Made by a program: the position numbers and the translations under genes
From: Phycisphaerales bacterium
Lineage (GTDB): Bacteria; Planctomycetota; Phycisphaerae; Tepidisphaerales; Tepidisphaeraceae
DNA: 64,000 bases
Direction of reading: 5' to 3'
Assembly (NCBI GenBank): GCA_020847545.1
Contig: JADLBV010000130.1
Span: 1-64,000, forward strand
In this document: in pieces, positions 60,866 to 64,000 of the stretch
Numbering within the stretch: the stretch's first letter is position 1
Layout: every line of letters starts with the position of its first letter
Notes under the pieces: generated by a model
Seen by the model: the letters and a program-made list of their open reading frames with translations, nothing else
Databases searched by the model: none
Told to the model about the DNA's origin: nothing

Positions 60866-60930
60866 ACTAAATCCGGCAATATTCAGTAAATGCTTGACTT
60901 CCTGTCATAATTACATAACATGATTCTCAA

Positions 60931-61053
60931 CTTATCCAGAGTGGTCGAGGGACTCGGGCCCGAAGACGCCACAGCAACCGGTTGGCTGCCGAAATGGTCG
61001 TTGAACTTGGTGCTAAATCCCGCCTGTTGGAAAAAAACGACAGGGAAGATAAG
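60931..61053 (+). promoter_or_regulatory. SAM-I (S-box) riboswitch aptamer
   Basis: P1 is CTTATC (60931-60936) with GATAAG (61048-61053). The S-box core follows: CAGAGTGG, GAGGGACT, GGGCCCGAAGACGCC, then AGCAACCGG and GGTGCTAAATCC, with a P4 hairpin CCTGT/ACAGG (61023-61044). The order and spacing match the SAM-I class. It lies upstream of the ThrC-like and CysO-like genes. SAM binding should stabilise P1 and lower expression through the adjoining terminator. Confidence 0.92.
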
Positions 61054-61089
61054 AAGACGCTGACCGACGAGACAAGGTGTCCGCCCGAG

Positions 61090-61118
61090 GCCTCTTCTTA
61101 TATGAAGCGGCTTTTTTT
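61090..61118 (+). terminator. SAM-controlled terminator of the riboswitch
   Basis: GCC-T-CTTC pairs with GAAG-C-GGC (61090-61111), followed by seven T. The 5' arm segment CTTCTTAT (61094-61101) is exactly complementary to ATAAGAAG (61049-61056) in the 3' strand of P1, which would form the antiterminator when SAM is absent. Confidence 0.85.
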
Positions 61119-61163
61119 GTTTGGGCGTGCGGGCGATGTTGCCCGCGGCGTCGGAAGGAAATT

Positions 61164-62432
61164 ATGAGTTACGTTTTGGGTTTGAAGTGCAAAGAGTGCG
61201 GCCATCGCGTGCCGGTCAGTCCAGTTCATGTCTGCGAGGCCTGCTTTGGGCCGTATGAAGTTGAGTACGATTATCAGGCCATGAAGGGGCGGGTGACACG
61301 CCAATCCATTGAGTCCGGGCCGAACAGTTTGTGGCGTTACAAGGATTTGCTGCCGATTGAGGGTGAACCGAAGACCGGGTTTCATTCCGGGTTCACACCC
61401 CTCAAACGCGCGCATCGACTGGGGCGGGAACTGGGCGTTTCGCAGCTTTGGATCAAGGATGATTCGTGCAACTATCCCACCTATTCCTATAAGGAACGGG
61501 TGGTGTCGGTGGCCATCACCAAGGCGGTAGAGTTTGGTTTTGAAACGGTTGGATGTGCCAGCACGGGAAACCTCGCCAATTCCACCGCCGCCCACGCGGC
61601 CGAGGCGGGGTTGCGCTGTTTTGTGATGATTCCGCACGATCTGGAACAGGGAAAGGTATTGGGGTCGCTGGTCTTTGGGCCGCAGGTGGTGCGGATCGCC
61701 GGCAATTATGATGAGGTCAACCGGCTTTGCACGCAGATCGCGGATAAATATGGGTGGGCGATTGTGAATGTGAATCTGCGGCCCTATTACACCGAAGGGG
61801 CCAAGACGCACGGCTTTGAAATCGCCGAGCAGTTGGGATGGAAGCTGCCGCAACATACGATCATCCCAACTGCGGGTGGGACGATTTTGCCCAAGGTGTA
61901 CAAGGCGTATCGGGAATTGATCGAATTGGGTTTGGTTGAAGACAACCAGCCAAAAATTTATTCAGCGCAGGCGGCCGGCTGCAATCCGGTGGTGAAGGCG
62001 ATCCAGAGCGGCACGGACAACATCGAACCGCAAAAACCCCGGACGATGGCCAAATCCATCGCCATCGGCAACCCGGCCGATGGGCTGTACGCCTATCAGG
62101 TGGTCACACAGTCGGGCGGGTGGGGTGAAAGCGCCACCGATCGGCAGATCGTCGATGCGATCAAGTTGCTGGCCAAAACCGAAGGCATCTGGACCGAGCC
62201 GGCCGGCGGCACAACGCTGGCGGCGGCGATCAAATTGATCGAACAGGGTCGAATCCCTCGCGATGAGTCGATTGTCATCAGCATCACCGGCAATGGCCTC
62301 AAGACCCAGGAGGCGGTGGTGAATGAACTGCCCGTCCGACGGGTGATCGAACCGAAAATCACGGATTTCGATCAGTGGATGGAGCAGGAAGTGTCGCCGG
62401 AAGTTTCGGATCGGCTGGCGGCGGTGCTATAA
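61164..62432 (+). CDS. Threonine-synthase-like PLP enzyme under SAM control
   Basis: 422 residues from the ATG at 61164 (GGAAGGAAA upstream). An N-terminal zinc-ribbon has Cys 9, 12, 24 and 27. A fold-type II PLP core follows, with Schiff-base lysine K110 in YPTYSYKERVV and CASTGNLANSTAAHA. Annotation by similarity would be threonine synthase (phosphohomoserine to threonine). However, SAM-I control, the YSYKER variant of the usual SFKDR motif, and a CysO-like sulfur carrier 34 bases downstream point to a possible sulfhydrylase making homocysteine or cysteine from a phosphorylated precursor. The two activities use the same aminoacrylate-type chemistry, so sequence alone cannot decide. Confidence 0.85.
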   Translation: MSYVLGLKCKECGHRVPVSPVHVCEACFGPYEVEYDYQAMKGRVTRQSIESGPNSLWRYKDLLPIEGEPKTGFHSGFTPLKRAHRLGRELGVSQLWIKDDSCNYPTYSYKERVVSVAITKAVEFGFETVGCASTGNLANSTAAHAAEAGLRCFVMIPHDLEQGKVLGSLVFGPQVVRIAGNYDEVNRLCTQIADKYGWAIVNVNLRPYYTEGAKTHGFEIAEQLGWKLPQHTIIPTAGGTILPKVYKAYRELIELGLVEDNQPKIYSAQAAGCNPVVKAIQSGTDNIEPQKPRTMAKSIAIGNPADGLYAYQVVTQSGGWGESATDRQIVDAIKLLAKTEGIWTEPAGGTTLAAAIKLIEQGRIPRDESIVISITGNGLKTQEAVVNELPVRRVIEPKITDFDQWMEQEVSPEVSDRLAAVL

Positions 62433-62466
62433 TCAGTCGTCATAGAAGAAGTATTGAAGGAGCAAC

Positions 62467-62745
62467 ATGAGCATTAAAGTACGAATTCCCTCACCGCTGC
62501 GAAGTTATACCGGCGGGTCGGATGTGGTGGAGTCGCCCGGCGTCAGCGTGGGCGAGGTATTGAACAATTTGAAAACCAAGGCGGCCGGCATCGAAACGCG
62601 GCTGTTCAAGGGGCCTGACCAACTGAATCGTTTCGTGAATGTCTATCTGAACGACGAGGACATCCGTTTCCTGAAAAACCTGCAAACGCCGGTGAAGGAA
62701 GGGGATGAAATCTCGATCGTTCCCGCCATCGCCGGAGGGCGATAG
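62467..62745 (+). CDS. CysO-like ubiquitin-fold sulfur carrier (MoaD/ThiS family)
   Basis: 92 residues with a GAAGGAG site. The sequence follows actinobacterial CysO closely in pattern: IPSPLRSYTGG near 8-18, RFVNVYLNDEDIRF near 56-69, and the end VPAIAGGR. Family members are activated as a C-terminal thiocarboxylate on Gly-Gly and donate sulfide to a PLP enzyme. Here one residue, Arg 92, follows G90-G91, so a Mec+/JAMM-type protease would be needed first, as known for some CysO/HcyS-type carriers. It is co-transcribed with the ThrC-like gene and RNase R. Confidence 0.88.
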   Translation: MSIKVRIPSPLRSYTGGSDVVESPGVSVGEVLNNLKTKAAGIETRLFKGPDQLNRFVNVYLNDEDIRFLKNLQTPVKEGDEISIVPAIAGGR

Positions 62746-62752
62746 TCTATTT

Positions 62753-64000
62753 ATGGCAGAAAGTCTGCACACTCGAATTTTGAATCATCTGAAGAATCCC
62801 GCGTATCGACCCGTCAAGTCACGGGCGTTGGCGCGGGAATTGAACGCACATCGTGAAGAAGAATACCCCGCCTTCAAGGAGGCATTGCGCAACCTTGAGG
62901 AGCAGGGGAAGGTGGTGGTGGGGCGGGGACGCAACATAGAGTTGCCGCCGCCTCCCAAGCCCGCCAAAGCCTCCAAACCCGTCACGAACAATCAACCGAC
63001 ACTGACGCGGGGGATGGTCGTCGGCTCCTATCGGCACAACCGGCGGGGGTTTGGGTTTGTCATCCCAACCGATCCGCCGGGGCATGAGGATTTGTTCATC
63101 CCCGAAGGGTACAACGCCGGCGCGATGTCCGATGATATCGTGCGCGCCCAGATCACCGGCAGCGACCGGCGTGACGGGCGGATGCGTTATGAGGGGCGGA
63201 TCACCGAGGTCATCCAGAGAGTCAACAATCGCTTCGTCGGCTCGCTGGAACGTCAACACAACCTGTGGATGGTCCTGCCGGATGGAAATGATTTCACCGA
63301 TCCGATTTTGACCCCCGACGCCGCCTCCCGGCACATCAAGCCGGGGACGAAGGTGGTCGTTGAACTGACGATCTGGCCGGAGGATGGCAAGCGGGCGCAG
63401 GGGGTCATCACCGATGTGTTGGGGCAGGCGGGCGAGAAGGATGTCGATCTGCGTTCGATCATCGTGCAGTACAACATGCCGGGCGAATTTCCGGGCGAGG
63501 TTCGTACCGAGGCCCGCGCGGCGCTGGATCGATTCAACGCCACGCTCAAGGACCAGCAGGCCGGCCGGCTGGATTTGACCGATGATCTGATCTGCACCAT
63601 CGACCCGGATGATGCCAAGGATTACGACGACGCCATTTCGCTGCGGCAACTGGAAAACGGCCACTGGCAACTGGGCGTGCATATCGCGGATGTGGCATTT
63701 TTTGTGCCCGAAGGTTCGGCGCTGGATCAGGAGGCGAACAAGCGGGGCAACAGCGCCTATTTTCCAGGCCACGTTATTCCGATGCTGCCGGAGATTTTGT
63801 CCAACGGGGTTTGTTCGTTGCAGGAGGGTGTGCCGAGGCTTTGCAAGTCGGCCTTCATCGAACTGGACGATCATGCCAAGCCGGTGGCCGCCAAATTCGC
63901 CAACACGATCATCCGATCCGCCAAACGGCTGCGCTATCGCGAGGCACAGGCGATTCTGGACAATGTGGCGGTCATTCCCCATCCCGAAGGGGCGCGACGG
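62753..64000 (+). CDS. rnr: Ribonuclease R (3' end beyond the window)
   Basis: Starts at the ATG at 62753, seven bases after the sulfur-carrier stop; the frame stays open to the window edge (416 residues seen of about 750 expected). An N-terminal helix-turn-helix-like region (about 1-60) precedes a cold-shock domain with RHNRRGFGFVIP near 94-105. The RNB catalytic domain shows the metal Asp cluster in TIDPDDAKDYDDAIS near 283-297 and GVHIADVAFFV. It degrades structured RNA 3' to 5'. Shared transcription with the SAM-controlled genes is likely but may be supplemented by an internal promoter. Confidence 0.93.
   Translation, partial: MAESLHTRILNHLKNPAYRPVKSRALARELNAHREEEYPAFKEALRNLEEQGKVVVGRGRNIELPPPPKPAKASKPVTNNQPTLTRGMVVGSYRHNRRGFGFVIPTDPPGHEDLFIPEGYNAGAMSDDIVRAQITGSDRRDGRMRYEGRITEVIQRVNNRFVGSLERQHNLWMVLPDGNDFTDPILTPDAASRHIKPGTKVVVELTIWPEDGKRAQGVITDVLGQAGEKDVDLRSIIVQYNMPGEFPGEVRTEARAALDRFNATLKDQQAGRLDLTDDLICTIDPDDAKDYDDAISLRQLENGHWQLGVHIADVAFFVPEGSALDQEANKRGNSAYFPGHVIPMLPEILSNGVCSLQEGVPRLCKSAFIELDDHAKPVAAKFANTIIRSAKRLRYREAQAILDNVAVIPHPEGARR

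Follow-up and report, generated by a model that had tools for sequence, protein, structure and literature searches.

Why does a SAM-I riboswitch stand ahead of a gene annotated as threonine synthase, and why is this gene followed closely by one for a sulfur carrier? The question is raised by a locus in a 64 kb stretch of DNA from a Phycisphaerales bacterium (hereafter the window, meaning that stretch at its full length). The answer proposed here, to which we give a probability of roughly 0.88, is that the locus is a SAM-repressed metM-metO operon, predicted from its sequence and from that of its relatives to make homocysteine for methionine.

The MetM-MetO system is already known and is not a new idea. 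According to PMC12172450, which cites Hasebe et al. 2024 (doi 10.1128/aem.01247-24), MetM of Streptomyces albulus acts as a homocysteine synthase on O-phosphohomoserine, and a SAM riboswitch lies upstream of its gene. The same paper also describes a neighbouring gene that resembles metO of S. albulus and codes for a protein of the sulfur-carrier family.

The operon and its leader

The first-pass annotation had recognized a SAM-I aptamer ahead of the operon, a fold-type II PLP enzyme resembling threonine synthase and, 34 bases further on, a CysO-like MoaD/ThiS protein. All three identifications hold and the gap is exact (Table 1). The aptamer scores well above the RF00162 gathering score of 44.4; it is the sole Rfam match of the window, and a search of the whole 3.75 Mb genome found no other SAM-I copy.

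Table 1. Features of the metM-metO locus, in window coordinates
Feature	Position	Strand	Basis
SAM-I (S box) riboswitch aptamer	60929..61055	+	RF00162, 73.0 bits, E 3.6e-15, full length
3' strand of P1 with neighbouring bases (AUAAGAAGA), 5' strand of antiterminator	61049..61057	+	
3' strand of antiterminator (UCUUCUUAU), also 5' side of terminator	61093..61101	+	
Intrinsic terminator	61089..61118	+	hairpin 61089-61112 with one internal mismatch, then U run; fold -11.1 kcal/mol
metM, fold-type II PLP enzyme, predicted O-phosphohomoserine-dependent homocysteine synthase	61164..62432	+	ATG 61164, stop 62432, 422 aa; PF00291, TIGR00260, MetM clade, motif
metO, CysO-like ubiquitin-fold sulfur carrier, 92 aa, ending AGG-R	62467..62745	+	PF02597, 60 bits; CysO structure matches

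The leader carries the features of the SAM-I class, namely the P1 to P4 consensus and an alternative terminator and antiterminator. The two antiterminator strands are perfectly complementary over 9 bp (duplex -14 kcal/mol) and this structure and the terminator are mutually exclusive, an arrangement typical of SAM-I switches that turn transcription OFF. A simple consensus terminator scan of the leader found nothing, because the hairpin contains one mismatch. Several homologous loci, the distant L119 among them, likewise have a P1 3' strand complementary to the 5' arm of a T-run hairpin; at other homologous loci, a simple test found no equivalent pairing. We infer that the leader is a SAM-dependent OFF switch, both SAM binding and termination being predicted. 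At high SAM, the aptamer would close P1, positions 61093-61101 would be freed for the terminator and transcription would stop before metM, whereas at low SAM the antiterminator would form and the metM-metO operon would be expressed. Downstream, an RNase R gene (62753-64000) starts 7 bases past metO and may belong to the same SAM-controlled transcript.

The best match of MetO among solved structures is a ThiS/MoaD family protein (4n6e_B, 85.9 bits), and CysO of Mycobacterium tuberculosis (3dwg_C, deposited as 9.5 kDa culture filtrate antigen) reaches 77.8 bits. The protein ends in AIAGG-R, one residue beyond the diglycine, a detail absent from the first-pass annotation. Extra residues or a fusion after the GG are found in about half of the 112 complete carriers from metM-metO loci.

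MetM, the separate threonine synthase and the sulfur genes of the genome

MetM matches PF00291 with 220 bits and the threonine synthase equivalog TIGR00260 (thrC) with 263 bits, far over the cut-off of 167, and falls slightly under the cut-off of PRK08197 (299.8 bits against 303). TIGR00260 is, however, unable to tell MetM from ThrC. The two are distinguished by a motif: where canonical ThrC has NSxNPxRxEGQK, a loop that probably binds the substrate phosphate, the window enzyme carries NVNLRPYYTEGAKT, and MetM proteins have in common NVN-x-RP-[YF]-Y-x-EG-[AS]-K (sometimes NIN). A quick tree of 58 proteins, with SH-aLRT support only and with long branches flagged, splits off the 41 MetM sequences, with that of Nonomuraea, by a branch with a support of 100. 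This stem branch amounts to 1.68 changes per column, and the canonical ThrC of the same genomes fall elsewhere in the tree. Judged by clade and NSxNPxRxEGQK motif together, the window enzyme falls outside canonical ThrC, whereas another gene of the genome, at C31 (TIGR00260 255 bits, motif NSVNPFRLEGQKS), belongs to it.

The locus has a SAM-I-metM-metO orthologue in an actinomycete, Nonomuraea gerenzanensis (L147, on a record that is listed among plasmids but has the size of a chromosome), where a SAM-I aptamer of 68.7 bits precedes a MetM and a MetO that are respectively 50% and 47% identical to those of the window. This MetM served as actinomycete stand-in for S. albulus MetM in the tree and in the identity comparison; the canonical ThrC of Nonomuraea itself lies outside the MetM clade. 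A search of viral contigs with MetM found no relative. At two loci of one family (L060 and L063), MetM is devoid of several N-terminal cysteines which, in the window protein, resemble a zinc-binding module.

The genome encodes seven PF00291 proteins. The first-pass annotation had named a second thrC, and JAMM and MoeB/E1-like genes, among those to look for; the former is the gene at C31 and the latter two lie in one cluster at C95 (G000:C95:19900-27000, L020). This cluster encodes, in one run, CysH-like, PHP, CysC-like (the CysC- and CysH-like calls being judged from sequence only), CysK, rhodanese, JAMM (81.5 bits), CysM-type and MoeB/ThiF-type (E1) proteins, and no sulfur-carrier gene was found in it. 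Three ThiS-family proteins are encoded in the genome, MoaD (over the TIGR01682 cut-off), ThiS (over the TIGR01683 cut-off) and MetO, and MetO seems to be the only CysO-like carrier, although, with an assembly of 162 contigs at 95.6% completeness, a further carrier gene may lie in unassembled DNA. Elsewhere in the genome (G000:C32:51762-54000, L018), another E1-like protein (432 aa) has a JAB-domain stretch and a membrane protein for neighbours and apparently belongs to a separate system.

Gene content suggests the following course for the reaction, with its sulfur donor and its E1 and JAMM partners. The JAMM protease, probably that of C95, would trim the Arg after the MetO diglycine, and the candidate E1 of the MoeB/ThiF family at C95 would adenylate MetO. 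A sulfurtransferase, possibly the rhodanese-type protein of C95, would then give its sulfur to form a C-terminal thiocarboxylate on MetO; in the S. albulus system, thiocarboxylated MetO is reportedly the sulfur donor. Finally, MetM would join O-phosphohomoserine drawn from the threonine branch to the carrier sulfur, yielding homocysteine and hence methionine, a path that SAM would close as described above.

MetM-MetO is not the only candidate homocysteine route of this genome, as metX and metY, which make up a complete route, lie side by side at C80. The first-pass annotation had regarded as telling against its own reading the combination of a complete separate homocysteine pathway with this gene as the sole threonine synthase; the pathway is present but, with ThrC at C31, the gene is not the sole one. 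Since no SAM-I was found at metX here, the data do not support SAM-I control of the methionine genes of this genome in general.

MetM replaces MetX and MetY among relatives

The distribution of the two routes was surveyed in 150 genomes of the class, with metM called at over 50% identity. The metM gene is present in 41 of them and metX, over its cut-off, in 72: both occur in 5 genomes, metM only in 36, metX only in 67 and neither in 42. This corresponds to an odds ratio of 0.087 (Fisher p 3.8e-8, shared ancestry being ignored). The window's own family shows the same exclusion, with 13 MetM-only and 6 MetX-only genomes, 2 with both and none with neither (p 0.0005, uncorrected for phylogeny), and the metM/metX switch is repeated in families f1, f15 and f18. 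MetA is absent from all 36 MetM-only genomes, as is MetY over its cut-off (three give weak paralogue matches), and at least two thrC-type genes (E<=1e-40) were found in 39 of the 41 metM genomes.

The regulation follows the enzyme. Among the 66 SAM-I sites of the 150 genomes, 42 are located upstream of metM (50-265 bases off, same strand) and 19 upstream of metX (within 2 kb, same strand), leaving 5 elsewhere. This placement agrees with the first-pass view that SAM control fits methionine supply. All the metM genomes but one have such a site upstream of metM (40/41), the exception being G058, in which metM was matched only from residue 72. MetM replaces MetX/MetY among relatives, inside single families, and takes over their SAM-I switch. 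The window genus, represented by this genome and a same-genus relative, stands out by having retained both routes, and its SAM-I is confined to metM. In some members of the window's family (L028-L030, L035, L036 and L048), about 1 kb separates metM from metO; in several loci this insert holds a probable exported protein gene (about 290 aa), and the protein of the one locus tested (L029) has no match in Pfam.

Three other readings can be weighed against these data. The one that survives best, though we consider it unlikely, is compatible with the proposed operon: the MetM function would be real, but would form a redundant or degenerating second route beside the complete MetX-MetY one. This reading bears on the weight of the locus in the organism, which would have kept or acquired it to little effect, and leaves the chemistry of MetM untouched. 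The adjacent metX and metY genes at C80 speak for it, as does the window metO, which lacks the neighbouring NIL gene that comes after metO in many homologues. Against it speak the MetM of the same-genus genome, which is 97% identical and retains an intact SAM-I and terminator, and the intact MetM motifs and fully open frames of the window.

Less probable is a genuine threonine synthase with an unrelated neighbour for carrier, SAM repression serving to spare phosphohomoserine or to tune the threonine/methionine branch. The window protein does exceed the TIGR00260 cut-off, and regulation of ThrC by SAM is known from plants, where the enzyme is allosterically activated. Furthermore, a Microcystis homologue with 51.6% identity to S. 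albulus MetM reportedly converts phosphohomoserine to threonine in vitro, acting mainly as a threonine synthase, and the authors doubt that it has the full MetM function in that organism (PMC12172450); by analogy, MetM-clade enzymes may keep threonine synthase activity. But this reading leaves unexplained why a canonical ThrC exists elsewhere in the genome, as do two or more thrC-type genes in nearly all metM genomes, and why the adjacency of the carrier is kept across many phyla; it predicts neither the exclusion of MetX nor the absence of MetA and MetY from MetM-only genomes. The sparing of phosphohomoserine at a real ThrC, offered in the first-pass annotation as an alternative, becomes much less likely given the ThrC at C31 and the metX exclusion.

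Cysteine synthesis in CysM-CysO style from a phosphoserine-type substrate, with SAM reading the general sulfur status, also entertained in the first-pass annotation, is now much less likely and indeed highly improbable: the solved structures closest to the carrier are of CysO type, but the enzyme resembles ThrC rather than CysM, C95 already encodes CysK and a CysM-type enzyme, and both the exclusion and the alternation of SAM-I sites concern the homocysteine genes. The plain-threonine and cysteine readings were thus rejected on paralogy, exclusion and regulation. These same features, together with the match to S. albulus MetM-MetO as far as PMC12172450 describes it, argue for the carrier-dependent synthesis of homocysteine from phosphohomoserine that had been put forward for this locus.

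Loci beyond the class and comparison with known systems

A scan of GTDB genomes gave at least 578 related stretches, of which the best 80 were examined. Their titles include Verrucomicrobia, Nitrospirae, Deltaproteobacteria, Omnitrophota, Mariprofundus, Gemmataceae and others; within these best 80, the MetM-MetO route is seen far past actinomycetes and cyanobacteria. As to the pairing of CysO-like genes with S-box and ThrC-like neighbours, which the first-pass annotation proposed to survey, a carrier lies downstream of metM (same strand, within 2 kb) in 77 of the best 80 loci, from many phyla, and in two of the other three the contig stops less than 350 bases from metM. SAM-I was detected in 39 of these loci with a model built in this analysis, about half being without it. 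Because the genes of the MetM clade bear a threonine synthase annotation, methionine synthesis can be scored as missing from genomes that have metM.

Other sulfur genes occur near metM-metO in the best 80 loci, encoding an E1 in 31, a CysK-type enzyme in 23 and a CysM-type enzyme in 12; at 12 cross-phylum loci, a single carrier accompanies MetM and a CysM-type enzyme. In L055 (138-1592) and L056, a second CysO-like carrier is encoded near metM-metO as a fusion with a MoeB-type E1. In 56 of the best 80 loci, a NIL domain, in a small protein or fused to the carrier, lies no more than 1.5 kb away from the carrier, and NIL was also found in 23 of 42 class loci. The small NIL proteins (about 78-99 aa) are encoded directly 3' of metO in L053, L044, L072, L130, L076 and others, and NIL-carrier fusions occur in L067, L119 and L144.

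These data suggest, tentatively and at somewhat less than even odds, that MetO is shared, acting as a SAM-gated sulfur hub for both MetM and the CysM-type enzyme of C95, and that the small NIL protein is a further, unrecognized component of the operon in many other lineages. Since the genome has three ThiS-family proteins and the C95 cluster lacks a carrier, MetO is the natural candidate partner of the C95 CysM-type enzyme. If this sharing is true, the sulfur supply of both sulfur amino acids would be limited by a single riboswitch. The possible novelty would thus lie in one carrier feeding homocysteine and cysteine synthesis and in the small NIL protein of many homologous operons, the latter being a concrete new experimental target.

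The closest known system is MetM-MetO of S. albulus, which, in the account given by PMC12172450, shares with the window a ThrC-like PLP enzyme gene followed by a carrier gene, an upstream SAM riboswitch and the predicted conversion of O-phosphohomoserine to homocysteine. The window differs in belonging to another lineage, with a MetM about 50% identical to an actinomycete one, in also having MetX-MetY, and in a carrier that ends GG-R. CysM-CysO-Mec of M. tuberculosis has in common with the window genome a CysO-like carrier and, at C95, the E1, CysM-type and JAMM proteins. In the window, however, the gene adjoining the carrier encodes a ThrC-like enzyme instead of CysM, which places the locus outside the CysM-CysO type; it is moreover SAM-regulated, and the C95 cluster is without a carrier gene.

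HcyS of Wolinella succinogenes functions in a protein thiocarboxylate-dependent methionine synthesis (Krishnamoorthy and Begley 2011, as cited in PMC5764234). Both systems would use a carrier thiocarboxylate as sulfur donor for homocysteine, which is a prediction for the window, and C-terminal trimming is likely needed in both. The enzymes differ, that of the window being a ThrC-like protein of fold-type II and that of the HcyS system presumably a MetY-type protein of fold-type I. With canonical bacterial ThrC, MetM shares the fold, the PLP lysine region and the presumed substrate O-phosphohomoserine, but it belongs to a separate, fully supported clade and carries NVNLRPYYTEGAKT in place of NSxNPxRxEGQK. 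Lastly, the NIL domain is linked to homocysteine synthesis in the DUF39-NIL/ferredoxin pathway (PMC5764234), and NIL proteins adjoin metO in many homologous loci; unlike in that pathway, the metO-linked NIL proteins, of which the window locus has none, are small, devoid of ferredoxin and in some cases fused to the carrier.
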